Source: Candidatus Alcyoniella australis (GTDB taxonomy: Bacteria; Lernaellota; Lernaellaia; JAVCCG01; Alcyoniellaceae). From it: a stretch of DNA of 17,688 nucleotides. Position 1 is the first letter of the stretch, and each line of letters begins with the position of its first letter. Location: assembly GCA_030765605.1 (NCBI GenBank), contig JAVCCG010000094.1, positions 1 through 17,688 of the forward strand, written 5' to 3'. A program made the position numbers and the translations under genes. Below the pieces are notes generated by a model, which did no database searches, was not told the origin of the DNA, and saw only the letters and a program-made list of their open reading frames with translations. Shown piece by piece: positions 1-17,352 of this stretch.

Positions 1-1498
1 GCCCGAGCAGCGTCAGGTCGGTCTGCAGCCGAAAGTCCGGCAGCGCCAGATAGACCCAGGCCGGGTAGTCGAAATCATCGATCACGCCGTAGCCCGCTTG
101 CAGCAGCCGCTCGCGCTCGACGTCGCGGTCATAGGCCAGCACGTAGCGCGCGTCCTGGTCGACAATTGTCACGCGCTCGAAGATCCAGTGCGGCAGGTTC
201 AAATCGTAGTCCCCGGCGCGCGCCAGAGTGTAGTCGCCCTTGATGTTGATCAGGCTGCGTAGCGGCTGCTCCGCGCTGGGGTGCAGCAGCGCCGCGTCCA
301 CTGCAACGCCGCCGAGCACTCCCCAGAACGCGAGCAGCACGGCCAGCACCAGTCCGGGCCGTCGTAGCCGCGGACGGCGCGCCCGCGCCAGGCGCACGAT
401 CACCGCGGCCAGGGGCAGCGTGGCCAGGGCCGAGAGGTAGAGCACGTCGTAGCCCTTGAGGTTCTGGCGAAAGAGGCTGACCGAGGGCGGAGTCCACAGC
501 AAATAGGCTGCGAACTGCACTAGCAGCAGGCACAGCAGCAGCCATCCCAACGGCCGCGCCCGCGCAAACGACGGGCTGCGCAGCAGCAAAACCAAACCGG
601 CGATCAGCAGCGCCAGTCCCAGAGGCGCGACGTGGCCCAGGTTCTCGGAGATCAACTGCGGGAAGTAGCTCGGCTGTCGCTGAGAGTGCAACTGCGGGGC
701 CTGCTGCGCCTCGCGCTGCTGCGTCACCTGTGCTGAGGGCACGTAGTAGCGCAGATGACGCTCGAACTCGTCGCCCGAGCCGCTGGCCAGGTTGGCGCCG
801 ACGTAGACCGATACGGCCAACGCCCCGGCGGCCAGCGAACGCACTGCAAAGCGCGCCAGGCTTCGTTGATCGACGCGACGCGCGACTAGTCGATAGCTCA
901 GTACCCCGGCCAGCCCGGCGGGAAGCAGCGTGTAGGCCGACTCCTTGAGCGCCACGGCCAGGCCGAACAACGCGCCGATCAGCAGCCAGTGCGCCCAGCG
1001 CTCTCGCTGCGTTGTGGCCAGCCGAACCAGCGCGGCGCAGCAAGCGAGCATCAGCGCGGTCATTGCCGCGTTGACCGACACTCCGTGGAACATAAAGACC
1101 ATGCCCGGCGCGCAAGCGCATAAGGTTCCGGCCAACAGTGCGCTGCGGCTATCCAGGGTCATGCGGCCGATGAGTAAGATGCACAGCGTGCACAGCGCAC
1201 CGAGCAGCGCGCTGAGGCAGCGGCCTGCGCGTTGCAGTCCCATGGCGGAAGGCGGCCCGTTGCCCAGCAATTGGGCGACCCACGACGCGGCCCGCACTGG
1301 CCCGCCGTAAAGCGCATAGACCAGCCTGCCGTAGATGTCGTCGGGCGGCCCGTTGTGCAGGCAGTAGTCCAGGTCGATCGGCTGGGGCAGCAGCAGCGTC
1401 TTGAACTCCAGGCCCACGCCGTTGCCCGCCAGGTTCAGCCCCAGACTCAGCAGTACAATCAGTGCGGCCCAGGCCCGGAAATGCCGGTCAGCGCTCAG
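1..1498 (-). CDS. GT-C-like multi-pass membrane protein (dolichyl-phosphate-mannosyltransferase/ArnT-like), partial
   Basis: I translated this frame directly. It stays open from about 1498 to the window edge (about 499 residues) and continues beyond it. The product begins SADRHFRAWAALIVLLSLGL and has roughly ten hydrophobic helices. A first long loop holds acidic residues (PIDLDY, then PPDD), as in GT-C glycosyltransferases, which use an acidic residue after the first helix. The segment GLAVALKESAYTLLPAG resembles the helix/Lys region of PMT_2/GT39 proteins. That family transfers sugars from a polyprenyl-phosphate donor at the membrane. No ATG, GTG or TTG lies at the upstream gene's end. A CTG at 1498-1496 overlaps the upstream TGA (CTGA), with GAGG 7 nt before it, and is my preferred start. 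A GTG at 1597 is the alternative and would overlap by about 100 nt. The acceptor is unknown. The family call is moderate; that the frame is coding is likely. Confidence 0.75.
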   Translation of the reverse strand, partial: MSADRHFRAWAALIVLLSLGLNLAGNGVGLEFKTLLLPQPIDLDYCLHNGPPDDIYGRLVYALYGGPVRAASWVAQLLGNGPPSAMGLQRAGRCLSALLGALCTLCILLIGRMTLDSRSALLAGTLCACAPGMVFMFHGVSVNAAMTALMLACCAALVRLATTQRERWAHWLLIGALFGLAVALKESAYTLLPAGLAGVLSYRLVARRVDQRSLARFAVRSLAAGALAVSVYVGANLASGSGDEFERHLRYYVPSAQVTQQREAQQAPQLHSQRQPSYFPQLISENLGHVAPLGLALLIAGLVLLLRSPSFARARPLGWLLLCLLLVQFAAYLLWTPPSVSLFRQNLKGYDVLYLSALATLPLAAVIVRLARARRPRLRRPGLVLAVLLAFWGVLGGVAVDAALLHPSAEQPLRSLINIKGDYTLARAGDYDLNLPHWIFERVTIVDQDARYVLAYDRDVERERLLQAGYGVIDDFDYPAWVYLALPDFRLQTDLTLLG

Positions 1499-3603
1499 GG
1501 CGCGGCCTCGCCCGGATAGCCGCAGGCTGCGAACGGATCGTCGTTGGCCTCGACCAGCACCGCCCGTCCGGTGTCCACGGCCGCACGCAGGAAGCACGAG
1601 TATTGGTGCTTGGGACGATTCAGCTCGAAGGGCACGTAGTGGCCGTCGATGCCCGGCGGCTGCGGGTACTGCACCAATACGCCGGTGAACTCAGCGCCGT
1701 TGACCGCGATGTTGCCGCTCACCGGCGTTGGCAGCACCTCGCGCCCCGAAAGCTCGATAGCCCCAAGCACGTCGAGGTCGCACAGCGGCTGGGCCACGTC
1801 GAATCCCGCAGCAAGGGTCAGCGCGCTGATCATCGGCGGCAAGAAATAACCGTCGATGTAGCCGCCGATCAGCAGCACATCTTTGGGTTCGTTCCCGGGC
1901 AGCGGATCGCGTATCCAGTGCTGCGCGAACAGCGCGGCCTCGGCCGGCTCGCACATCGTCTGGAACAACGTGGCCACCGGGTGGAAATCGTCGAACTCAT
2001 TTAGCGGCATGCCGGTGAGCAGCGCCACGAGAAGCCGAAACGGAATCGGGTGTTCCTTGAGCGTCAGGTTCTGCACCCAGGTCGCGCCCGCGCCGGAGAA
2101 CACGCCGGAGCGGTACGAGGGTTCCACAGCCAAAGCCAGCTCGCCGATCGATGCGCCCGTGGAGTGGCCGAATAAAAAGAAGCTCTCCTGGTCAAAGCGC
2201 AGCGGCCCGCCGCCTGTGGGCGAGTCCGGACACAGCGCCGCCGGGACCTCGAGGCCTCGCGCCAGCTTGGGCAGCATGCAGTACTCGGACGCAGCCTGGC
2301 GTGCGTTGTCGCGGTAGGCCACCAGGTTGAGGAAGTTGAAGAAGTACAGATCGGAGAAGTCGCCCAGCACGCCGCGCGGGCCGACCGTGGCCGCCTCGAT
2401 CGACAGGCAGGCGATTCCGCGTCGCGCCAGATACAGCGCGGGTCCGCGCCCCTCGATCCCCTGTTGCCGCTCCGCGCTCGTGCCGCGGTCCACCACCTGG
2501 GTGTATCGGCCGCCCGCGCCGTTGACGTAGAACAGCAGCGGGAATCCCGCTTCGGGCATCGGCGATTTGGGCACGGTCAGGCAGAAGCGCACCTGCTCGT
2601 CCCACTGCTTGATCGGCTCGCCGTTGACGAAGACAATCTCGCCGCCGCCAAGGAAATAGTTGCGGTTGCCGTTCTGCCAGATCGGCAGCACGGTTTGGCC
2701 CTCGAGCACGTAGTAGTCGTCAAACTCGCGCAGCAGCCGCAGGCCGTAATAGTCCGGGTCGGGCAACTCGGATACGGCTTGGCGCAGGGCAAGCATCTCG
2801 GGCAGCACGTCGCCGGTGCGAAAGACCGTGGCTGCCGCGACCTGATCCGAATCAATCCCCTGCCCCTCGATCACGGGCCAGAGGTGGGCGAAAGCCGCGG
2901 CAGCGGCCGGACCGTGAAAGCCCGATGGCGCCTGGCCTAGTTTGAGCGCCTCGAGCTCGGGCGGCGAGCCCAGGGGTTGGCCCAAAGCGTCGCCCAGGCT
3001 GCGCAGCACCACTGCGGCGTAGAGCGTATCGGCGTCGAGGGTCAGTCCGGCGGGCGGCATCATCGCCAGCAAGTCCGATGGAGTGTAGGTCGTGGCCTCG
3101 TGCCGGAACGAATAGCGCAACGGCACACGCGCTCCGAGGTTCGACGAATCAGGGTCAACGTTGATCACGAACGCACGCGCCCCGTCCGTGATCGACTCGG
3201 CCCAGGTTTGCGGCAGGGCCGCGGCGTTGATCTCGCCGTCAAAGCGCATGTAGATCGCGGCCACGCGCGAGAAGCCCTTGGTCTTGGCGTCGGCCTGTTC
3301 GATGTAGTGGGTCATCAAGGCGTTGCGCCGCGGATTGTCCAGGCGCACGAAGCGCAACGTGCCGTCGTCGCGACGCATGAACTCGATGGGATACGGCGCG
3401 TCGAAAAAGCGGGCGTCGGCCGAGCAATCCAGGAAGAGCCTGACTCCGGGTAAGCCGCCCTCGCCCTGGTCGTCGTCGTCGTCGAGCAGGTCCTGGTCCG
3501 ACTCGTTGCCGGAACTATCAGCGCACCCGGCAACCAGGGCCAAGCACAGCAGCAATATCAGCGAAAATGGAATGGAGAATTTCAGGCCGAGGCCATTCCT
3601 CAA
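1495..3603 (-). CDS. Secreted alpha/beta-hydrolase-like lipoprotein
   Basis: The product has 702 residues. An N-terminal signal helix (residues 9-25) ends in a lipobox with Cys at 27 (LVAGC), so it should be a lipid-anchored envelope protein. An acidic linker with a run of five Asp follows (residues 41-45). Residues 50-340 form an N-terminal region I cannot assign. From about 353 the pattern fits an alpha/beta hydrolase: a strand and oxyanion-type loop (LLFYVNGAGG, 356-365), a nucleophile elbow GHSTG with Ser 481, and candidate acid/base residues Asp 584 (GGYIDGYF) and His 655 (DGHYVPFE). A lipase or esterase activity is plausible but the substrate is unknown. The start is TTG at 3603, overlapping the stop of the upstream gene by four bases (TTGA), which implies translational coupling. 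The downstream gene is joined the same way. Confidence 0.8.
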   Translation of the reverse strand: MRNGLGLKFSIPFSLILLLCLALVAGCADSSGNESDQDLLDDDDDQGEGGLPGVRLFLDCSADARFFDAPYPIEFMRRDDGTLRFVRLDNPRRNALMTHYIEQADAKTKGFSRVAAIYMRFDGEINAAALPQTWAESITDGARAFVINVDPDSSNLGARVPLRYSFRHEATTYTPSDLLAMMPPAGLTLDADTLYAAVVLRSLGDALGQPLGSPPELEALKLGQAPSGFHGPAAAAAFAHLWPVIEGQGIDSDQVAAATVFRTGDVLPEMLALRQAVSELPDPDYYGLRLLREFDDYYVLEGQTVLPIWQNGNRNYFLGGGEIVFVNGEPIKQWDEQVRFCLTVPKSPMPEAGFPLLFYVNGAGGRYTQVVDRGTSAERQQGIEGRGPALYLARRGIACLSIEAATVGPRGVLGDFSDLYFFNFLNLVAYRDNARQAASEYCMLPKLARGLEVPAALCPDSPTGGGPLRFDQESFFLFGHSTGASIGELALAVEPSYRSGVFSGAGATWVQNLTLKEHPIPFRLLVALLTGMPLNEFDDFHPVATLFQTMCEPAEAALFAQHWIRDPLPGNEPKDVLLIGGYIDGYFLPPMISALTLAAGFDVAQPLCDLDVLGAIELSGREVLPTPVSGNIAVNGAEFTGVLVQYPQPPGIDGHYVPFELNRPKHQYSCFLRAAVDTGRAVLVEANDDPFAACGYPGEAAP

Positions 3604-4244
3604 TTCTTCGGCCTACGCCAGACGCCGCCGGAGTCGACCCACTTTTTGAGCGAGGCCAGCGCCTCGGGCATGTCGCCCTTGGCCAGGGCGTTCTGGATCG
3701 ACTGCGGGATCGCGCCGCTGATGCTGAACACCGTGGCGTAGCGGGCGAAGGTCCGGTCGCCGGGCAGCTCATAGAGCTTGTAGCTGCCAGAGACCTTTCG
3801 CACCTCGTTGTCGTAGTCGTCGTCGAGATCCCACTTGAGCACGTAATCATCGCGATCGTACTCGTGGTCCACGCGGTAGCGGAACTTGAAGATCGACGCG
3901 CCGACGTAGAACTCGATGGTGTCCGAGTCGTGGTCGCGCTCCACCACCGTGGCCGAGATCAGCCGCGGCAGATACTCGATCTGGCGCTCGGTGGCGCACA
4001 ACAGCTGGTAGACCTCGTCGCGCGACTGCTGGAAGATCAGCAGGCTCTGCACGAAGTTCTCCGAGTTGGCCCCCTTGACGTCGCCGATCAGCAGCAAGCC
4101 CTCGGAGCACAGTTGCGAGATCTGTTCGGGCGTCATGTCCTCAAGCGCATCGTCGTCGACGCCCTCCAGGCAGTGCGGCCAGGCCGCGGAAGAAACGAGC
4201 GCTACGCTGAGCATGATTGTAATCACTGTGATGTATCGGCGCAT
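3600..4244 (-). CDS. Secreted SRPBCC/START-like protein
   Basis: The product has 214 residues and starts at ATG 4244 behind a strong GGGGAGG Shine-Dalgarno. An N-terminal signal peptide (about residues 1-21, VALVSSAA before WPHC) has no lipobox, so it is probably exported to the periplasm. The middle and C-terminal part shows alternating beta strands with charged turns (IEFYVGASIFKFRYRVDHEY, then YVLKWDLDDDYDNEVRKVSG, then a long C-terminal amphipathic helix), the pattern of the SRPBCC/polyketide-cyclase helix-grip fold that binds hydrophobic ligands. This assignment is by eye and weak at the sequence level. It is the first gene of a minus-strand operon with the hydrolase lipoprotein and the GT-C-like protein, so a role in envelope lipid or polymer handling is an inference only. 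Confidence 0.75.
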   Translation of the reverse strand: MRRYITVITIMLSVALVSSAAWPHCLEGVDDDALEDMTPEQISQLCSEGLLLIGDVKGANSENFVQSLLIFQQSRDEVYQLLCATERQIEYLPRLISATVVERDHDSDTIEFYVGASIFKFRYRVDHEYDRDDYVLKWDLDDDYDNEVRKVSGSYKLYELPGDRTFARYATVFSISGAIPQSIQNALAKGDMPEALASLKKWVDSGGVWRRPKN

Positions 4245-7327: not shown

Positions 7328-7362
7328 GATGCGGGCAGGTCCTCCGTCAACCTACCCGCATC
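7328..7362 (-). terminator. Intrinsic terminator of the five-repeat lipoprotein gene
   Basis: Two 13-base arms (7328-7340 and 7350-7362) pair around a 9-nt loop. The single imperfect position is C opposite A on the plus strand but a G-U wobble on the minus strand. On the minus strand the stem is followed by a T-rich run (GCTTTATTTTATG). It lies 27 nt past the lipoprotein stop. Both points favour minus-strand use. The plus strand has no T-run after the stem, so the convergent GT4 gene has no clear terminator of its own in 7263-7388. Confidence 0.85.
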
Positions 7363-8315: not shown

Positions 8316-8319
8316 TACT

Positions 8320-8374
8320 GTTCCCTCCATCAGAGCTTTGAGGGAACGGTCTGGAGAGCGATCCGGACCGTTCC
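8320..8374 (-). promoter_or_regulatory. Riboswitch expression platform 1 with alternative helices and SD sequestration
   Basis: Reading the minus strand, GGAACGGTC (8374-8366) can pair perfectly with GACCGTTCC (8351-8343), but its first five bases are also the 3' strand of aptamer stem P1. GTTCCCTC (8347-8340) can alternatively pair perfectly with GAGGGAAC (8327-8320), which contains the Shine-Dalgarno of the lipoprotein gene (ATG 8315). If ligand stabilises P1, the first hairpin is lost and the SD-masking hairpin forms. If P1 is open, the first hairpin forms and the SD is free. This predicts a translational OFF switch. Confidence 0.75.
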
Positions 8375-8458
8375 TGCGGCAGCCGAGCCATCTCCACCAT
8401 GGAGACCTCCGGCTTTGCGCCCCCGCCTCGCGGCGGGTTTGCCCTTGTCACGGAACTT
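8370..8458 (-). promoter_or_regulatory. Cyclic-di-GMP-I (GEMM) riboswitch aptamer 1
   Basis: On the minus strand the leader contains the GEMM core GTGACAAGGGCAAACC, then a 6-bp helix CCCGCC/GGCGGG closed by a GCGA (GNRA) tetraloop, then GGGCGCAAAGCC. A second arm TCTCC/GGAGA follows, then GGCTCGGCTGCCGC. P1 is closed by GTTCC (8456-8452) and GGAAC (8374-8370). The order, spacing and conserved bases match the cyclic-di-GMP-I family as I know it. The base at the ligand-discriminating position (G for cyclic di-GMP, A for the cGAMP-type variant) reads G in my alignment by eye. It lies about 55 nt upstream of the lipoprotein start. Confidence 0.9.
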
Positions 8459-8540
8459 GTCCCTTTGAGGACATCCGCAAACCTTAACCGATTTTCAGTG
8501 ATCACGCCCATTTCGGACCAACTGTACGTGTCATGGTTAT

Positions 8541-8557
8541 TACACTATCCGTGCCAA
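8541..8557 (-). promoter_or_regulatory. Sigma-54-like promoter of the five-repeat lipoprotein gene
   Basis: On the minus strand TTGGCACG (8557-8550) matches the -24 element of the sigma-54 consensus exactly. Four bases later comes GTGTA (8545-8541), where the consensus has TTGCA, so the usual -12 C is a T. The spacing is correct. The same arrangement precedes the paralogue. Transcription would begin near 8530, leaving a leader of about 70 nt before the aptamer. Confidence 0.55.
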
Positions 8558-8663
8558 CAGTAAGAAATATAGTTTTATCAAGTGATCTCATTTGGTTATG
8601 TGTTTTTCGGGCATTTGACGACAAACAATAAGCATTGCGGTGAACATACGAAATGAAATGCTC

Positions 8664-8678
8664 GTTACTATCTGTAAC
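8664..8678. promoter_or_regulatory. Palindrome GTTAC-N5-GTAAC, possible activator site
   Basis: GTTAC (8664-8668) and GTAAC (8674-8678) form a perfect inverted repeat around TATCT. It lies about 140 bp upstream of the predicted start from the sigma-54-like promoter, a typical distance for an enhancer-binding protein. I did not find a matching copy upstream of the paralogue, which weakens the idea. Apart from this site, the promoter, the riboswitch and the terminator at 8744-8771, I see nothing in the AT-richer gap 8459-8798. Confidence 0.3.
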
Positions 8679-8743
8679 AAATCCCTGAGAAGAATGAGAA
8701 GCTAGAAAGATAATGGAGGAGGCCCATGGCGGGTAAAATAGTT

Positions 8744-8771
8744 GCGCGGGCGGGGAAGACCCCGCCCGCGC
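8744..8771 (-). terminator. Intrinsic terminator of the two-repeat lipoprotein gene
   Basis: GCGCGGGCGGGG (8744-8755) and CCCCGCCCGCGC (8760-8771) form a perfect 12-bp stem with an AAGA loop. On the minus strand the stem is followed by AACTATTTTACC, a moderate T-run. It lies 27 nt past the stop codon of the paralogue, the same position as the terminator of the other cassette. Confidence 0.85.
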
Positions 8772-8798
8772 GCGCTCTAAGGTGATTCTACCTAAACC

Positions 8799-9467
8799 CT
8801 ACTCTGTGCTCTGAAAGGGGTTTACGAAACAGATGCATGAGGAGTTGACCTGGCTGCACAGGCAGCTCAGCGGGTTGGGCTCGCCATAGAGCGAGAAGTC
8901 CTGCTCGGACTGATCGCTCTGGTGGCCGCTGATCGCGTTGTCGTCGTTATCAGGATTCTGCTCTGGATCGAACTCGGCGATACCAATGCTGAAGTCGCCC
9001 GGGTTCTGTTCGGGATCTACGCCCATCGAGTTTTCGCCGTAGTCCGGGATGTCGGCCGGGTTGATTCCGGGCAGGTTCTCTTCTTGAACAGTGTCCATCT
9101 CAGGGCCCACGGCCGCGTCGGGGTTCTGCTCGGGGTCGATGCCCGGGATATTCTCGCCGTAGTCCGGGATCTCGGCCGGATTGCGGCCAGGCAGGTTCTC
9201 TCCCTCGTCGTCAAGCTCGGCCATCCAGTGGTCGCCTTCATCGTCAACGCACTCACACATGCGCTTGCCGACAAAGCAGTTGCAGTCGCTGAACGCGGCG
9301 TCGGGCTGTTCGAGCAGGTCGGCAAAGCCCGGATTGCCCCAGTAATGGACGCTGAACTCCTCGGCCTGATCGTCCAGAGCGCCGTCGTCCGCGCTTTGGC
9401 AACCGACGAACGCGAACAGCGCCACAACGACTACCGGAATCATCGTCAGGTAAATGTTGTGTTTCAT
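8799..9467 (-). CDS. Repeat-containing Cys-rich lipoprotein, two-repeat paralogue, riboswitch-controlled
   Basis: The product has 222 residues from ATG 9467, with GGAGGG seven bases upstream. A longer frame from 9596 would run through the riboswitch and is rejected. The signal helix ends FVGC (Cys 23). Residues 37-86 are almost identical to the neighbour, including CNC (62-64) and CEC (71-73). Two repeats begin at residues 91 and 131 (NLPGRNPAEIPDYGEN and NLPGINPADIPDYGEN), and a remnant DPEQNPD is at 167-173. The C-terminus has CLC (202-204) and CIC (211-213), then FVNPFQ. Function is unknown. The conserved ends and variable centre suggest that the termini carry the activity and the repeats act as a spacer. 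It has its own promoter, riboswitch and terminator and is therefore probably expressed independently of the neighbour. Confidence 0.9.
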   Translation of the reverse strand: MKHNIYLTMIPVVVVALFAFVGCQSADDGALDDQAEEFSVHYWGNPGFADLLEQPDAAFSDCNCFVGKRMCECVDDEGDHWMAELDDEGENLPGRNPAEIPDYGENIPGIDPEQNPDAAVGPEMDTVQEENLPGINPADIPDYGENSMGVDPEQNPGDFSIGIAEFDPEQNPDNDDNAISGHQSDQSEQDFSLYGEPNPLSCLCSQVNSSCICFVNPFQSTE

Positions 9468-9471
9468 TGTT

Positions 9472-9519
9472 GTTCCCTCCGTCAGAGCATTTGGGAACGA
9501 GTGTCTGAGCACCCCGTTC
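9472..9519 (-). promoter_or_regulatory. Riboswitch expression platform 2 with alternative helices and SD sequestration
   Basis: On the minus strand GAACGGGGTG (9519-9510) can pair with CACTCGTTC (9503-9495) with one bulged G and one G-U pair. Its first bases are also the P1 3' strand. GTTCCC (9498-9493) can alternatively pair with GGGAAC (9477-9472), the 3' half of the ribosome site before ATG 9467. The logic equals that of platform 1, although the sequence has drifted and the SD-masking helix is shorter (6 bp against 8 bp). Confidence 0.7.
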
Positions 9520-9602
9520 TTGCGGCAGCTGAGCCGTCTCCCGTGGGAGACCTCTTGCTTTGCGCCCCCACCTCGCAATGGGTTTGCCTTTGTCACGGAA
9601 CA
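9515..9602 (-). promoter_or_regulatory. Cyclic-di-GMP-I (GEMM) riboswitch aptamer 2
   Basis: The minus-strand leader contains GTGACAAAGGCAAACC, then helix CCCATT/GGTGGG with a GCGA tetraloop, then GGGCGCAAAGCA. A second arm GTCTCC/GGAGAC follows, then GGCTCAGCTGCCGC. P1 is GTTC (9601-9598) with GAAC (9519-9516). Relative to aptamer 1, helix P2 has changed while staying paired (with two G-U pairs), which supports a selected RNA structure. AGCA replaces the more usual AGCC, and one base next to the predicted ligand-discriminating G is A instead of G. Confidence 0.85.
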
Positions 9603-9673: not shown

Positions 9674-9690
9674 TACAGTAAGCGTGCCAA
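9674..9690 (-). promoter_or_regulatory. Sigma-54-like promoter of the two-repeat lipoprotein gene
   Basis: On the minus strand TTGGCACG (9690-9683) is an exact -24 element, followed after four bases by CTGTA (9678-9674), with T in place of the usual -12 C. Conservation of this exact layout in both cassettes, where the flanking leader sequence has largely diverged, supports it. Transcription would start near 9663, about 60 nt before the aptamer. Confidence 0.55.
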
Positions 9691-9809: not shown

Positions 9810-12800
9810 TTATTGCTCGGTGATTCCCAAGAGTTGCTCAATGGCGTGGATCATCTCTTTGCGCTTGAAGGGCTTTTGCAGAAAGTCGACGTAGTCGTAT
9901 CCGCTCAGGGACTGCTCGATCTCGCTAGGTTCGTAGCCGCTGGTGAGCAGCAGCGGAAGGTCCTGCTTTAACTCGCGGATCCGCGGCAGCAGCGTATGTC
10001 CGAGCCGATCGGGAAGGGTTTCGTCGAGCAGCACAAAGTCGATCTGCTCTTGATGCTCCTCGAGCTTTTTCATGCCGTCCTGGGCGTTCTGGGCGGCGAG
10101 GGTAGTACATCCGGCCATTTCGAGAAACGCCGCGACAGTTATACGGATGCTCTCCTCGTCGTCGATCAGCAGCGCGGTCGCTCCCTTGAGCGAGCTTCTG
10201 CGCTTGGGGCCGGCCTTGACCTTCGTGGATTTATCCAAAACCCACCGCACTTTTTGCGCCAGCTCCTGGGGTCGAAACGGCTTCTGGATAAAGTTGATTC
10301 CGCGCTCCAACACGCCGTGATGGGCGATGGCGTTTTCGGTATAGCCCGACATGAACAGGGTCTTCATTTTGGGATTGATCTTGCTCAGTAGATCGCGCAG
10401 CTGCTTGCCGCCCTTGAGCGGCATCACCACGTCGGTCAGCAGCAGATCGATGGTCTGCTCGCGCCCCTTGCACAGCTGCAGCGCCTGTTCTCCGTCTTGG
10501 GCCTCGATCACCGTATATCCCTGGGACTGCAGGGCTCTGAGGGCCAGCTTGCGAACGATCTCCTGGTCCTCGGCCAACAGAATCGTTTCGCTGCCGCGCA
10601 CTGAAAACGGCTTTTCAACCGCGGCATATGTCTCGGCCTCGGCGCCGGCCGTGGGCAGATAGACCTTGAAAGCGGTCCCCTTGCCCGGCTCGGAGTAGAC
10701 GTTGATGTGCCCATGGTTCTGATGGACAATGCCGTGGATCGTCGACAGCCCCAGGCCGGTCCCCTTGCTCGTGGCCTTGGTGGTGAAGAACGGCTCGAAG
10801 ATGTTTTTCAGCGTGTCGGCGTCCATGCCCACGCCCGTGTCGCTGACCGCGAGCAGCACGTAATCGCCGCTTATCGCTTCGTTGCAGGTCTGGCATCTGT
10901 TGCCTTCGAGGCAGACGTTCATCGTCTCGATGGTCAGCTTGCCGCCCTGGGGCATGGCATCGCGGGAGTTGACCGCCAGGTTGACCAGGATCTGATCGAT
11001 CTGCCCTGGATCGATCAGCACCCTGCTGGGTTTCTGCTTGTGAATGAAGACAAAATCAATGTCTTCGCCGATGATGCGCCGCAGCATCCGCTCCGATTGC
11101 TCCACCGCCGTGTTGAGGTCCATCACCTTGGGCGAAACCAGCTGCTTGCGCGAGAAGGCCAGTAGCTGCGCGGTGAGCTGGGTAGCTGAATCCGCGGCCT
11201 TCTGGATTTCGGCTACATCCTTTTTCAGCGGATCACCGTCGTTGAGCGCACTGTAGACGATATCGGAGAATCCACGGATCGCGGTCAGCAGGTTGTTGAA
11301 ATCGTGGGCCACGCCGCCGGCCAGACGTCCGATCGATTCCATCTTCTGCGACTGGGACAACTGTTGCTGGAGCTGCTCGCGCTCCTGTTCGGTCCGCTTG
11401 CGCTCGGTGATGTCGGAGCAGAAGGCCATGAACAGATCAGCGGAAAGGGCCACGGCCTTGATACTGGTGTAAATATCGGCCCCGTCCTTCTTGCGTATGA
11501 TGACTTCCGTTTGCATCTCCCCTTTTTCGATGAAATCGCCAAACGGGGCGAAGGTCTCGGGCGGCACATCGGGCGGGGCCAGCTGGGGAATCGACATCTG
11601 CAACAGTTCTTCCCGCGAGTAGCCGGTCATCAGGCAGGCGGCCTGATTGACGTCGATAAACGCGCCCTCGTTGTTGACGATGAAAATCCCCTCCGGCGCG
11701 TTTTCAATGTAGATCCGGTGCCTCTCCTCGCTATTGCGTAGCGCCTCCACGGCCAGCCTGCGCTCGGTAATGTCGCGCGTGCTGCCCTGCAAGGCGATGG
11801 GATCTCCGTTTTCGTCGAAAATCACCTTGCCGCTGATTTCAACGTGAACCGGCTCTCCGTCCTTTTTCAGAATCGCAGTCTCAAATACGATCCCGGAACT
11901 GCTCGAACCCTTTGAAAGCTGGCTGGCAATAACCTGGGTCATCTGGGAAAAGTACGCTGGATCGGCGTGTTCCAGCAGTCCGGTGCCGATCCACTCCTCG
12001 GAAGTATGGCCGGTTAACTGTTCAACCGCCGGATTGACGTAGGTGAACTCGAAGTTCAGATCCATCGTCCAAATCACGTCGTCGGTGTTGTCGGCCAGCA
12101 ATCGATACTTGGCCTCGCCCTGGCGCAGCGCCTCCTGGGCGCGCTTGCGCTCGGTGATGTCGATCGACAGAATGAAGATCCCCTCTGGCACAGGCTGAAT
12201 GCTCAGTTCGAACCAGCCGATGGAGCCGTCGGAATAGACGAATTCGTTTTCCATTCGGTGCGACGTGCGTTGTTCCATGCAGCGGCGCAGATGGACGAAC
12301 AGCTCGGTCTGCTCAATGCCGGGATAGACCTCCATCATCGTGTGGCCCAATAAATAATCTTTGGTCTGGCGTCCGTGCATGGTGACCGCATCGTTGAGAT
12401 AGAGGTAGCGCCAATCAAAGCCGATGATCTGGCAGCCCTCCATGATGTTGTCCAGGGTGTTGCGGCAAAGTCCCTCGCCCACGCGCAGCGCCTCCGGTGA
12501 ACACTTGCCTGCGGATCCATCGTGCGCGATCTCGAGATACCCGGCCTCGCCGTTGTCCAACTTGCAGGATGAGACCGACAAGTCGACGAACAGCGAGCGG
12601 CCCTCCGCGGTGCGCAGCCGCGCCTCTCCCTGCCAAGAGCCTTCCCGCTGGACCTGTTCGAAAATCTGTGATCGCGAGAACGATTCGTCGGCGATCTGGA
12701 TCAGCTCCTCGATCGCACGTCCCAGCGCAGCGGCCCGCTGGATTTGATATAGCTTTTCAGCCCCCGAATTCCAGAACACCACGCGGCCGCGTGCGTCCTC

Positions 12801-12914
12801 AATAATCGCAGCGTCGGGAAAATCTTTTAAAGTATTAAATTCGTCCAAGTACGTTTGGTTGTCCACGTTATGCCGCCCTCGATTTGTTAGCGATTTTCTA
12901 GCAAACAATATCAT
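9810..12914 (-). CDS. Soluble multi-PAS hybrid histidine kinase with two receiver domains
   Basis: The product has up to 1034 residues and no membrane helix, so it should be cytosolic. In order: PAS-like domains at about 25-130, 145-255, 265-375 and 395-503 (three of them end in the typical DITER). HisKA follows, with phospho-His 537 (GGVAHDFNNLL). The HATPase has the N box around Asn 649, DTGVGM (692-697) and GTGLGL (718-723). Receiver 1 (about 773-895) has acceptor Asp 828 and receiver 2 (about 912-1030) has Asp 964. A Cys pair CQTC (674-677) sits inside the ATPase domain. It would autophosphorylate and pass phosphate to its own receivers or a partner. No output domain or cognate regulator lies nearby. 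The start is uncertain: ATG 12914 has a poor ribosome site, while GTG 12866 (residue 17) has GAGGG upstream and may be the true start. Confidence 0.92.
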   Translation of the reverse strand: MILFARKSLTNRGRHNVDNQTYLDEFNTLKDFPDAAIIEDARGRVVFWNSGAEKLYQIQRAAALGRAIEELIQIADESFSRSQIFEQVQREGSWQGEARLRTAEGRSLFVDLSVSSCKLDNGEAGYLEIAHDGSAGKCSPEALRVGEGLCRNTLDNIMEGCQIIGFDWRYLYLNDAVTMHGRQTKDYLLGHTMMEVYPGIEQTELFVHLRRCMEQRTSHRMENEFVYSDGSIGWFELSIQPVPEGIFILSIDITERKRAQEALRQGEAKYRLLADNTDDVIWTMDLNFEFTYVNPAVEQLTGHTSEEWIGTGLLEHADPAYFSQMTQVIASQLSKGSSSSGIVFETAILKKDGEPVHVEISGKVIFDENGDPIALQGSTRDITERRLAVEALRNSEERHRIYIENAPEGIFIVNNEGAFIDVNQAACLMTGYSREELLQMSIPQLAPPDVPPETFAPFGDFIEKGEMQTEVIIRKKDGADIYTSIKAVALSADLFMAFCSDITERKRTEQEREQLQQQLSQSQKMESIGRLAGGVAHDFNNLLTAIRGFSDIVYSALNDGDPLKKDVAEIQKAADSATQLTAQLLAFSRKQLVSPKVMDLNTAVEQSERMLRRIIGEDIDFVFIHKQKPSRVLIDPGQIDQILVNLAVNSRDAMPQGGKLTIETMNVCLEGNRCQTCNEAISGDYVLLAVSDTGVGMDADTLKNIFEPFFTTKATSKGTGLGLSTIHGIVHQNHGHINVYSEPGKGTAFKVYLPTAGAEAETYAAVEKPFSVRGSETILLAEDQEIVRKLALRALQSQGYTVIEAQDGEQALQLCKGREQTIDLLLTDVVMPLKGGKQLRDLLSKINPKMKTLFMSGYTENAIAHHGVLERGINFIQKPFRPQELAQKVRWVLDKSTKVKAGPKRRSSLKGATALLIDDEESIRITVAAFLEMAGCTTLAAQNAQDGMKKLEEHQEQIDFVLLDETLPDRLGHTLLPRIRELKQDLPLLLTSGYEPSEIEQSLSGYDYVDFLQKPFKRKEMIHAIEQLLGITEQ

Positions 12915-13047: not shown

Positions 13048-13069
13048 CCTGCCAAGCACAAAGGTGAAC

Positions 13070-13801
13070 ATGAAGGCGATGCTCGATCCGATCAAGACCG
13101 ACAGTCTCAAGGACGTGTTCATCGCGCGTTTCGAGGAGCTGATCCTTTCGGGCAAGCTCTCCATCGGCCAACGCCTGCCCTCGGAGCGCGAGCTGGCGTT
13201 GCAGCTGGGCGTCAGCAGGCCTGTGGTGCACGAGGGGCTGGTCGACCTGGAGTTCAAGGGCCTGGTGTCGATGAAGCCGCGTGTGGGCACGGTGGTCAAC
13301 GACTACCGCCGCCAGGGCTCCCTGGCCCTGCTCACATCGCTGGTCAACTACCGCCGGGGGTTGTTCGAGCCGCGACTGCTGGCCTCGATGCTGCAAATGC
13401 GCATGCTCTTCGAGATTGAGACCGCGCGCCTGGCAGCGCATTGTCGTAGTGACGCGCAGCTCGCCGAGCTGCGCGACTTGCTCAAGCGCGAGCAATCCGC
13501 CGAGCGCACCGACATCGCTTATATCACCGAGCTCGACTTTGAGCTGCACCACATGGTGGCCCTGGCCTCGGACAACATGATCTACCCGCTGGTGATCAAC
13601 TCTTTTAAACAGGTCTACACCAATCTCACCGGATTGTTCTTCTCCGAGCCCGCGGTGGTCGAGCAGGTATTCGCCTTCCATCGCGAACTGGTCGAGGCGA
13701 TCGCGGCCCAAGACGAGCAGCGCGCCGCGCAGCAAATGCAACGCATCCTCGAGCACGGGGCCGAGCATTTAGGATCGATAATCCTCAAACAACAGGGGTA
13801 A
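13070..13801 (+). CDS. GntR-family (FadR/FCD) transcriptional regulator of the glycyl radical operon
   Basis: The product has 243 residues from ATG 13070, chosen because AAAGG lies just upstream. An in-frame GTG at 13064 lies inside that ribosome site. Residues 10-80 are the winged helix: LPSERELALQLGVSRPVVHEGLVDL is the GntR recognition region, then GLVSMKPRVGTVV forms the wing. Residues about 85-235 are an all-helical FCD ligand domain with candidate metal ligands Asp and His (ELDFELHHM) and a later His (FAFHREL). FCD regulators bind small carboxylic acids or related metabolites and usually repress. The gene lies four bases before the glycyl radical enzyme gene in the same transcript, behind its own apparent operator. 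The effector is therefore probably the substrate or product of that enzyme (inference). Confidence 0.92.
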   Translation: MKAMLDPIKTDSLKDVFIARFEELILSGKLSIGQRLPSERELALQLGVSRPVVHEGLVDLEFKGLVSMKPRVGTVVNDYRRQGSLALLTSLVNYRRGLFEPRLLASMLQMRMLFEIETARLAAHCRSDAQLAELRDLLKREQSAERTDIAYITELDFELHHMVALASDNMIYPLVINSFKQVYTNLTGLFFSEPAVVEQVFAFHRELVEAIAAQDEQRAAQQMQRILEHGAEHLGSIILKQQG

Positions 13802-13805
13802 GAAA

Positions 13806-16316
13806 ATGAGCGTAGCGGCCGACCGCACCTATCAGATCAAGCAGCCCAAGGGGCTCTCCGCGCGCATCCAGTGGCTGCGCGACTACTACTTCCAGGGCAC
13901 GCAGCGGCCGTGGAACAACGAGTTCACGCCCTTTGGCACGGGCACTCCCTGGGACGTGCAGCACAACGAGATGGCCTACTTCATCGTGCCCGAGAACTAT
14001 CTGCTGTTGCAGACCTTCGTCAGCTCGTTCCGCCAGGCAGCGCGCCCGATCGACCTGCCCGCGAAGTTCTGGGATTGGTCTCAGCCCGAGCGCCGCGCCT
14101 GGTTCGTCAAGCAGGTGATGGTCGAGCACCTGCCCCACGAACTGCTGCCCGGCGATCTGATCGCCGGCGCGCGCTTCAACCTCCAGACCTCGCTGTGCCT
14201 GGACCGCAAGCAGGCGAAGAAGCACTGGGAGCTGATCGCCGGTAAAAACGGCGCACGGCGGGCGGTCAAGTGGTTCCACGACCACGGCTACGGCAACGCC
14301 GGCGCCACCCCCGGCCACATTGTGCCGGGCCATGAGCGCGTTTTGCAGATCGGCTGGAAGGGCGTGCACGCCGACCTGGTCGCCAAGTACGACGCCCTGG
14401 GCAAGCGCGAAAAGAAAGGACCCAAGGGCGCACAGCTACGGGCGATGATCACCGCGGCCCAGATGCCGCGCGACCTGGCGGCCAAGTACGCCGATCTGTG
14501 CCGCGACCTGGCATTGGCCGAGGCCGACCTTGACCGCCGCTCCGAGCTTGAGCAAATGGATCACATCTTGCGCAAGGTTCCCTGGGAGCCGGCCGAGACT
14601 TTCTGGGAGGCACTCCAGGCGTTGTGGCTGACCCACATGCTGATCATGTCCGACGAGAACTACCCCGGACCCGGCATCAGCTTCGGCCGCATCGACCAAT
14701 ACCTGCTCCCCTATTGGCAGCACTCAATCGAGCAGGGCGTGGACCGCGAGTTCCTCAAGGAGATGCTCAAGTGCTTCTGGATGCACTGCAACACGGCCTA
14801 CGACGCGATCATCCGCGCGGGCTACCAGGGGATCACCGCGGGCTTCGGCCAGCTGATCACGCTCTCGGGCATGGGCCCCGCGGGGCGCGACATGACCAAC
14901 GATCTGACCTACGCAATGCTCGAGGTGATCGACGAACTCTCGCCGATCCTCGAGCCCAAGCCCAACGTGCGGCTGCACTGCAACTCGCCCGACGAGCTGC
15001 TGGACAAGCTGATTGAGATGATCTCCACCAGCCAGGGCGCGCCGTTTCTGCTTAACTTCGACGAGCGTTCGATGGCGGGCATGCTGCGCGAGGCCAAACG
15101 CGCCAATCTCCAGCGGCTGATCAACCTGGACAACGTCCACGACTACGCGCCCGTGGGCTGCCTGGAAAACACGATGGTCGGCAACGACCGTTCGGGCACG
15201 GTGGACATCAACCTCAACCTGCTCAAGGCGGTCGAGCTGGCGTTGAACAACGGCCGCGACCTGCATCAGGTGCGCGACGTGATTACCGGCAAGGTCGATC
15301 CCATTGGCCAGGACGGACCGGCCACGGGCGACGCCGCGAAGTTTGAAACCTTCGAGCAGTTCTGGCAGGCCTACGCCGAGCAGACGCGTCAGATCATCGC
15401 GCGCTCCGCCGAACTCTATGAGAAATCCGAATCGATCCGCGCCCAATACTGCCCCACTTCCTACCTAAGCTGCATGGTCAAGGGCTGCGCCGAGCAGGGC
15501 CTGGACGTCACCCAGGGCGGAGCCGAGATCGCGCTGGTGACCCTCGAGGCCGTGACCTACGCCACCACCGTGGACTCGCTGCTGGCAATCAAGTACCTGG
15601 TGTTCGACGAGGGCGCCTGCACCATGCCCGAGCTGATCCAGGCGCTGCGCGACAACTGGGAGGGGCACGAGGTGCTCCAGGCGCGGGCCAAGAACAAGGC
15701 CCCCAAGTACGGCCGCGACGACGACGAGTCCGACGCCATGGCCACGCGCGTAATGGAGCTGTGGACCGACGAAACCTGGAACTACAAGACCCAATCGACC
15801 GGCCGCCAATTCCGACCGGGGATGCTCTCCTGGAACTACTGGGTCGGCGACGGCTTCGTGCTCGCGGCCAGCCCCGACGGCCGCCCCCAGGGGCAGTTCC
15901 TCTCCAACGCAATCTGTCCCAGCAACGGCTCGGACACCAACGGCCCCACGGCCAACACCAACTCGGTGGGCAAGGTCTTCGGCGGCAAGTCCGACTGCGG
16001 CGAGGGCGACTGGAACGACTACCGCAGCGCCCTGCCCAACGGCGCGAGCCACACCATCACCTTCAATCCCTCGATCCTGCGCGACCCCGAGCACCAGCAA
16101 AAATTCAAGGCGTTCTTGCGCGGCTACGCTGTCAACGGCGGGTCCGCGCTACAAATCAACATGCTCGACAAACAGATGCTGCTCGACGCCCAGCGCCGGC
16201 CCCAGGACTACCGCCACCTGCTTGTGCGCGTCACCGGGTACAACGCCTACTTCACCTCCATCGGCCGCGAGCTGCAGAACGAGGTGATCGCGCGGCTGAG
16301 CCACAGCGACTTCTAG
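13806..16316 (+). CDS. Glycyl radical enzyme, C-x-E type, substrate unknown
   Basis: The product has 836 residues, in the usual range. GHIVPGHERVL (170-180) is a conserved N-terminal family motif. The thiyl-radical Cys is 452 with Glu 454 (APVGCLENTM). The Gly radical site is Gly 811 in VRVTGYNAYF, 25 residues from the end; most relatives have Ser or Gly where this protein has Asn 813. A single Cys followed by x-Glu occurs in glycerol/propanediol dehydratases, choline TMA-lyase, hydroxyproline dehydratase, isethionate lyase and arylacetate decarboxylases. It excludes pyruvate formate-lyase (Cys-Cys) and speaks against benzyl- or alkylsuccinate synthases. VH replaces the common AR before the DYxxxGCxE block, and Asn replaces the common Pro after Glu. 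The start is ATG 13806 with AGGGG upstream. No microcompartment gene or small decarboxylase subunit is in view. The exact reaction is not assignable. Confidence 0.95.
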   Translation: MSVAADRTYQIKQPKGLSARIQWLRDYYFQGTQRPWNNEFTPFGTGTPWDVQHNEMAYFIVPENYLLLQTFVSSFRQAARPIDLPAKFWDWSQPERRAWFVKQVMVEHLPHELLPGDLIAGARFNLQTSLCLDRKQAKKHWELIAGKNGARRAVKWFHDHGYGNAGATPGHIVPGHERVLQIGWKGVHADLVAKYDALGKREKKGPKGAQLRAMITAAQMPRDLAAKYADLCRDLALAEADLDRRSELEQMDHILRKVPWEPAETFWEALQALWLTHMLIMSDENYPGPGISFGRIDQYLLPYWQHSIEQGVDREFLKEMLKCFWMHCNTAYDAIIRAGYQGITAGFGQLITLSGMGPAGRDMTNDLTYAMLEVIDELSPILEPKPNVRLHCNSPDELLDKLIEMISTSQGAPFLLNFDERSMAGMLREAKRANLQRLINLDNVHDYAPVGCLENTMVGNDRSGTVDINLNLLKAVELALNNGRDLHQVRDVITGKVDPIGQDGPATGDAAKFETFEQFWQAYAEQTRQIIARSAELYEKSESIRAQYCPTSYLSCMVKGCAEQGLDVTQGGAEIALVTLEAVTYATTVDSLLAIKYLVFDEGACTMPELIQALRDNWEGHEVLQARAKNKAPKYGRDDDESDAMATRVMELWTDETWNYKTQSTGRQFRPGMLSWNYWVGDGFVLAASPDGRPQGQFLSNAICPSNGSDTNGPTANTNSVGKVFGGKSDCGEGDWNDYRSALPNGASHTITFNPSILRDPEHQQKFKAFLRGYAVNGGSALQINMLDKQMLLDAQRRPQDYRHLLVRVTGYNAYFTSIGRELQNEVIARLSHSDF

Positions 16317-16326
16317 GAGTACGTCG

Positions 16327-17352
16327 ATGTCCGAGAAGTCCGACCACGCTACTGTGCTGCAACTGATCCGGATGTCCACCGAGGACGGCCCGGGGATCCG
16401 CACCTCGGTGTTCTTCAAGGGCTGCTCCCTGCGTTGCGACTGGTGCCACAACCCGGAAAGCATCAGCTTCAAGCCCCAGCTGCAGTGGGTCGGCTCGCGC
16501 TGTATCGGCTGCCTGCTGTGCATCGAGACCTGCCCGCGCGGCGCACTGACAATGGGCGATCAGGGGATCGCCATCGACCGCGAGAAGTGCATCGGTTGCG
16601 GCGATTGCGCCCAGCAGTGCCCGACCACCGCCCTGGAGCTGCTCGGCACAAGCTGGAGCGTGGACGCGCTGGTGGCCGAGGTGCTCAAAGACCGCGCGTT
16701 CTTCGAACAATCCGGCGGCGGAATCACGGCCACCGGCGGCGAGCCCGCGGCCCAGGCGCGGTTCGTGGCCAAGTTCTTCGAACTGCTGCGCGAGCGCGGC
16801 GTGCACACGGCGCTGGACACCTGCGGCCAGTGCGCGACATCGCAGATCGAGCTGATCCTGCCCCACACGCAGCTGGTGCTGTTCGACGTCAAGCTCATCG
16901 ATCCCCAGCGCCACTTGCAACATACCGGCGCACTGCGCGACAAGATCGAGCAGAGCTTCGCTTGCGTGGTGCGCGCGGTGCGCGAACCCGGCGGCCCCAG
17001 CGAGTTGTGGGTGCGCACCCCGATCATCCCCGGCGCCACGGACGACGAGGCCAACATCGCGGCCATCGGGCGCTACCTGGCCGAGCATGCCCACGGCGCA
17101 ATCGAACGCTGGGAGCTGTGCGCGTTCAACAACCTGTGCCGCGACAAGTACTCGCGCCTGGACCAGGACTGGCCATACAAAGATGCCCCGCTGATGACCG
17201 AGGCCCAGATGGAGCGCCTGGCGCAGGTCGCGCGCCAATCCGGCGTCGCCCCGGAGATCGTCCACTGGACCGGGTCGGTGCAGATGAAAAACAACAGCGC
17301 GCAACCGCCGCTGAAGCTGGTCAAGCCATGCCAATACGGAGCTGAATCGTGA
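16327..17352 (+). CDS. Glycyl radical enzyme activase (radical SAM, two extra Fe-S clusters)
   Basis: The product has 341 residues. It uses S-adenosylmethionine and a [4Fe-4S] cluster to make the 5'-deoxyadenosyl radical that abstracts H from the partner's Gly 811. The radical SAM motif CxxxCxxC is Cys 33, 37 and 40 (KGCSLRCDWCHNPES). A ferredoxin-like insert follows, with Cys 59, 62, 65 and 69 and Cys 88, 91, 94 and 98, able to hold two more [4Fe-4S] clusters. This is the form seen in activases of non-PFL glycyl radical enzymes. GGGITATGGEP (residues 130-140) is the SAM-binding segment. The start is ATG 16327, 10 bp after the enzyme's stop, and that stop lies within the ribosome site (TAGGAG). 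The stop overlaps the next start (GTGA). Confidence 0.95.
   Translation: MSEKSDHATVLQLIRMSTEDGPGIRTSVFFKGCSLRCDWCHNPESISFKPQLQWVGSRCIGCLLCIETCPRGALTMGDQGIAIDREKCIGCGDCAQQCPTTALELLGTSWSVDALVAEVLKDRAFFEQSGGGITATGGEPAAQARFVAKFFELLRERGVHTALDTCGQCATSQIELILPHTQLVLFDVKLIDPQRHLQHTGALRDKIEQSFACVVRAVREPGGPSELWVRTPIIPGATDDEANIAAIGRYLAEHAHGAIERWELCAFNNLCRDKYSRLDQDWPYKDAPLMTEAQMERLAQVARQSGVAPEIVHWTGSVQMKNNSAQPPLKLVKPCQYGAES

Follow-up and report, generated by a model that had tools for sequence, protein, structure and literature searches.

Paralogous lipoprotein leaders of Candidatus Alcyoniella australis: one c-di-GMP-I aptamer each and a putative translational OFF switch

Two neighbouring minus-strand lipoprotein genes on a contig of Candidatus Alcyoniella australis (JAVCCG010000094.1; its 17,688 analysed nucleotides are the window hereafter) are each preceded by a leader with the looks of a riboswitch, which raises the question of what these leaders sense, whether they act jointly or apart and in which direction ligand binding would switch the genes behind them. 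On the evidence given below, we think that the paralogous leaders, with one canonical c-di-GMP-I aptamer each, are probably independent translational OFF switches.

Two aptamers in a duplicated unit

Rfam covariance models identify both minus-strand leaders as c-di-GMP-I (GEMM-I) aptamers (Table 1), exactly where a preliminary description of this DNA had put GEMM riboswitches and with the core motifs that it had given for them. Both copies score above the gathering cut-offs of RF01051 (35 bits), the model proposed in that description, and of RF03167 (59 bits). The preliminary reading thus holds up in substance: the two leaders are additional members of the known c-di-GMP-I riboswitch class, and a third copy was not found by RF03167 or RF01051 in the 4.29 Mb genome (98% complete).

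Table 1. Features of the window that are discussed in the text (positions counted from the first nucleotide)
Feature	Position	Strand	Basis
Sigma-54-like promoter, upstream cassette, TGGCACGCTTACTGTA	9674..9689	-	10/12 consensus matches, shuffle p 0.006
c-di-GMP-I aptamer, upstream copy	9520..9597	-	RF03167 62.2 bits, E 7.8e-13; RF01051 58.9 bits
Candidate expression platform, upstream copy	9468..9519	-	sequence, complementarity and shuffles, folds
Upstream platform segments	1 GTTCC 9601-9597 (5' of aptamer); 2 GAACG 9519-9515; 3 GTTCCC 9498-9493; 4 GGGAAC 9477-9472 (Shine-Dalgarno)	-	
Acidic repeat lipoprotein, 222 aa	8799..9467	-	ORF; lipobox-like FVGC; about two copies of a 39-residue repeat
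Terminator-like hairpin 3' of the 222 aa gene	8744..8771	-	12-pair GC stem, then T-rich tail
Sigma-54-like promoter, downstream cassette, TGGCACGGATAGTGTA	8541..8556	-	10/12 consensus matches, shuffle p 0.0035
c-di-GMP-I aptamer, downstream copy	8374..8452	-	RF03167 69.6 bits, E 5.9e-15; RF01051 64.4 bits
Candidate expression platform, downstream copy	8316..8373	-	sequence, complementarity and shuffles, folds
Downstream platform segments	1 GTTCC 8456-8452; 2 GGAACGGTC 8374-8366; 3 GTTCCCTC 8347-8340; 4 GAGGGAAC 8327-8320 (Shine-Dalgarno)	-	
Paralogous acidic repeat lipoprotein, 308 aa	7389..8315	-	ORF; 117-base tandem repeat; about five copies of a 39-residue repeat
Terminator-like hairpin 3' of the 308 aa gene	7328..7362	-	14-pair stem, then T-rich tail

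Between the copies helix P2 changes from CCCGCC/GGCGGG to CCCATT/GGTGGG with its pairing kept, and the P3 arm retains its stem and alters its loop, both as previously described. As covariation between two copies, however, the P2 change is thin, since of the three differing pairs a single one is fully compensatory (G-C to A-U) and the other two go from C-G to U-G wobbles. Ten aptamers of the same class, aligned and evaluated against the Rfam structure plus three distal P3 pairs, have 91.3% standard pairs overall, with P2 paired to 100% and doubly changed at four of its six pairs, and P3 paired to 91.5%. Over the whole structure 7 pairs are doubly changed, compared with 3.4 in shuffles; with the partners shifted by 1-3 columns, the share of paired cells falls from 91% to 36-47%. 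Selection on the RNA structure is well supported by the aligned sequences.

The duplication takes in TTGGCACG and the leader, aptamer, platform and gene that follow, and identity between the two units over aligned bases amounts to 71% from promoter to aptamer, 86% in the aptamer, 94% in the platform (with gaps) and 83% in the coding region. Whole-cassette duplication therefore holds for promoter region, aptamer, platform and gene; the terminator, which had been counted in, has to be left out, the 3' regions being no more alike than shuffles. Nor are the riboswitches 'tandem' as they had been called: they are two single-aptamer leaders of separate genes. A cooperative tandem riboswitch with both aptamers in one leader was rejected, the aptamers being separated by an entire gene with a terminator-like hairpin behind it. 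The Bc3-5 tandem of Bacillus thuringiensis (PMC4759541) likewise brings neighbouring aptamers of one class together, but in the window a promoter-like site, a gene and a terminator-like hairpin go with each aptamer separately, and no leader is shared. A true tandem c-di-GMP-I pair, about 75 bases apart and ahead of a transglutaminase-like protein, was seen in an unrelated genome (G057, loci L009 and L018), in contrast to the window.

As for the neighbourhood, the cassettes are immediately preceded, on their own strand, by a hybrid histidine kinase with several PAS and two receiver domains (9810-12914). Beyond it, 13064-17352 holds a glycyl radical enzyme cluster made up of a GntR/FadR-type regulator, a pyruvate-formate-lyase-like glycyl radical enzyme, whose scores stay under all NCBIfam equivalog cut-offs, and the corresponding activating enzyme.

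A four-segment platform and the direction of switching

The leaders have four alternately complementary segments: segment 1 (GUUCC) forms the 5' strand of P1, segment 2 (GGAACGG) its 3' strand, segment 3 (CCGUUCCCUC) an anti-Shine-Dalgarno and segment 4 (GAGGGAAC) the Shine-Dalgarno (SD). Pairings 1-2, 2-3 and 3-4 are found again in three other genera (G002, G004, G006), the platform of G006 being read by eye and the automatic helix test having chosen a different helix there. In G002, segments 3 and 4 are altered jointly (GUUUCCUC/GAGGAAAC) with their pairing kept, and the upper part of the 2-3 hairpin, compared by eye, varies by genus and is largely paired (GGUC/GACC, GUCG/CGAC, UCUGU/ACAGA, GGUC/GGCC). 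With only the middle shuffled, the joint p for both helices and their overlap is 0.0003 for copy 1 and 0.010 for copy 2 of the window, 0.0003 for G002 and 0.0013 for G004, for a platform type that is confined to five mutually homologous leaders. In a genome collection, 11 loci matched a search pattern in which the aptamer is joined to GAACG, and the only one of the same class (L034) apparently is the G006 contig.

We infer from these complementarities a switch that would work as follows. Held in the pocket of G20, A47 and C92, c-di-GMP would stabilise P1 (segment 1 GUUCC with segment 2 GGAAC) and so keep segment 2 off segment 3; the latter (GUUCCCUC), left free, would pair with the SD in segment 4 and mask it, so that no lipoprotein would be translated. 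Without ligand, segment 2 would pair with segment 3 instead (GGAACGGUC/GACCGUUCC) and release the SD. A U-run is absent after the 2-3 hairpin, which argues for translational rather than termination control, and transcription termination by the platform was rejected.

Constrained folds in which P1 takes up segment 2 lower SD accessibility in copy 1, G006, G002 and G002B and leave it nearly unchanged in G004 and in copy 2 (0.29 vs 0.32), the latter having weaker platform helices and a C/A mismatch in P1. What counts against the OFF model, besides copy 2, G004 and the small set of homologous leaders, are the unconstrained minimum-energy folds of copy 1, copy 2 and G006, which pair segment 1 with the SD besides forming 2-3, as the SD would then be masked even when no ligand is bound. 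The same arrangement of 1-4 plus 2-3 speaks for an ON switch built from the same aptamers and ligand, where ligand-formed P1 would withdraw segment 1 from the SD or cotranscriptional folding would leave the SD open in the bound state, and class I aptamers with either output are on record (PMC9262584). We nevertheless hold an ON switch to be rather unlikely, since once P1 forms, free segment 3 would be a better SD partner (8 pairs in copy 1) than segment 1 (5 pairs), and since G002 keeps 3-4 by compensatory change and loses the contiguous GUUCC/GGAAC pairing of 1-4. Hence, we favour the translational OFF switch. Vc2 from Vibrio cholerae (RF01051) is described as a P1-dependent translational OFF switch (PMC9262584) and resembles the window leaders in its three-helix aptamer, GNRA-capped P2, G20/A47/C92 pocket, P1-linked platform and, as proposed here, OFF type. 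They differ from Vc2 and RF01051 in having G rather than A at position 43 (GGGGCGC for GGGACGC), in their four-segment GUUCC/GGAAC platform and in their cargo, a lineage-specific repeat lipoprotein.

Pocket bases and the probable ligand

Both copies have G20, A47 and C92 in the RF03167 alignment as well as in the ten-sequence alignment, the numbering being mapped onto the window aptamers from what we take to be the Vc2 sequence. These are the reported c-di-GMP contact residues (PMC4744006), with A47 stacked between the two guanines of the ligand (PMC9049102); yet these three residues are also present in Vc1, whose affinity for c-di-GMP is far below that of Vc2 (PMC4744006). There are five GGDEF matches in the genome, of which the four typical ones carry Asp at the substrate-selectivity site (NDxYGHxxGD), where Ser or Thr would mark the cGAMP-making Hypr enzymes (PMC9140294). 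The genome also has 19 PilZ and eight HD_5 (HD-GYP-type) matches, and EAL domains were not found in it by the domain search. Pocket bases and the Asp-type GGDEF repertoire together make c-di-GMP the expected ligand of both aptamers.

Model scores could be read otherwise: RF03167, labelled "c-di-GMP-I-GGC", is the top-scoring Rfam model for both window copies, which match it over its full length and above cut-off, and likewise for each of the eight aptamers scanned from relatives. The leaders might then genuinely belong to the GGC variant class or the cGAMP class and sense something other than c-di-GMP. We regard this as improbable. 'GGC' presumably denotes G20-G47-C92, and at the position equivalent to Vc2 47 the RF03167 consensus has G (CGCGAAgC) whereas both window copies have the canonical A (CGCAAAGC), an A that is also present in other RF03167 matches listed beyond the window. 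Hence, the label is misleading here, RF03167 capturing canonical aptamers, and assignment to the GGC variant class was rejected despite the best model score because the diagnostic G47 is absent. The cGAMP (GEMM-Ib) riboswitches of Geobacter have the same fold, but cGAMP was likewise rejected as ligand, since position 20, an A in cGAMP aptamers, is G in those of the window, and since the four typical GGDEF domains, none of them Hypr-type, carry the Asp of c-di-GMP producers. Even less probable, if only slightly, is that the riboswitches are degenerate or weakly functional, their aptamers kept by recent descent and at least copy 2 no longer switching, which its P1 mismatch and weaker platform helices would fit but which sits badly with an invariant core, with a P2 fully paired through compensatory changes across genera and with a platform that is the best-preserved duplicated part among aligned bases.

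Changing cargo and changing promoters

Paralogous genes do stand behind both leaders, as had been described, their products sharing 75% identity over the first 159 residues. Both proteins are strongly acidic, with a lipobox-like signal (FVGC) and CxC cysteine clusters near both ends; calling them surface proteins, as the preliminary description did, has its sole basis in that lipobox-like signal peptide, from which lipid anchoring of both would follow. Neither lipoprotein matched a Pfam or NCBIfam family, and homologues were found neither in six relatives from the class nor in 14 other genomes. The same leader type precedes other acidic-repeat lipoproteins in G002 and G004 (GNEVDEPNGEYDP... 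and GVNPDKPHDFVEGDDD...); in G006 it stands before yet another lipoprotein, of which the contig contains just the beginning.

A second riboswitch group (L019, L021, L025 and L028, from G002, G004 twice and G006) heads a single lipoprotein family of visibly similar sequences, which is not seen behind the window riboswitches, and its platforms differ in sequence from the window type; folds and shuffles give a clear switch prediction for L021 only and none for L019, L025 and L028. Elsewhere in the window, two adjoining minus-strand genes (1495-4244) matched no Pfam or NCBIfam family; at the start of the 702 aa product of one, a lipobox-like signal gives way to an Asp-rich stretch, an arrangement shared with several of the relatives' lipoproteins.

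Both cassettes have a sigma-54-like site of the form TGGCACG-N4-[C/G]TGTA, in which the GC of the -12 element is GT, starting 104 (downstream) or 92 (upstream) bases before the aptamer. Being paralogous, the two sites amount to one observation, and the window has three other 10/12 matches to the sigma-54 consensus. Three of the relatives' riboswitch leaders, and less clearly a fourth, carry sigma-28-like sites instead (for example TAAAGTTA or TCAAGTTT, 12 nt, CCCGATAA or GCCGATAA), with p values, uncorrected for ten leaders and two motifs, of 0.001 in G002B, 0.028 in G004B1, below 0.0005 in G004B2 and, weaker, 0.037 in G002A; the motif is borderline in G004C and not significant in G006A, G004A and G006B. 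Such sites lie 5' of the riboswitch-lipoprotein genes at L021, L025, L028 and L008 (G002, G004), which suggests a flagellar-regulon link of these genes in the relatives. As a control for the sigma-28 motif, flagellin promoters were weakly supportive in G004 (11/16, with the -10 element ACCGATAC as in G006B) and not supportive in G003.

All six relatives have flagellin, and five of them have a FliA that scores above cut-off; in the remaining one (G005) a stop interrupts FliA. The same search found neither FliA nor flagellin in the window's genome, where RpoN is present. One appealing but unproven interpretation of this pattern is that promoters were swapped after motility had been lost. More widely, and tentatively, the phylum (GTDB FEN-1099, equivalent by name to the candidate phylum Lernaellota; PMC11382960) may possess a fixed c-di-GMP-I OFF module whose cargo has been replaced or has diverged by genus, with sigma-28 in several flagellated relatives and sigma-54 where FliA and flagellin are missing, so that the switch would have survived the motility regulon under whose control it may once have stood.

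While the sensor type is familiar, we consider it mildly new that, across the lineage, it is paired with lipoproteins that change fast and with promoters that change as well. Since the RF03167 label can fall on aptamers that do not have its distinguishing nucleotide, the ligand of such aptamers is better called from the pocket bases than from the top model. What these leaders add is a recurring, putatively translational platform, a changing lipoprotein cargo and a promoter pattern; they bring an uncultured candidate phylum into the range of c-di-GMP riboswitches and suggest, in a concrete and testable form, that c-di-GMP is connected with motility-type promoters and orphan repeat lipoproteins.
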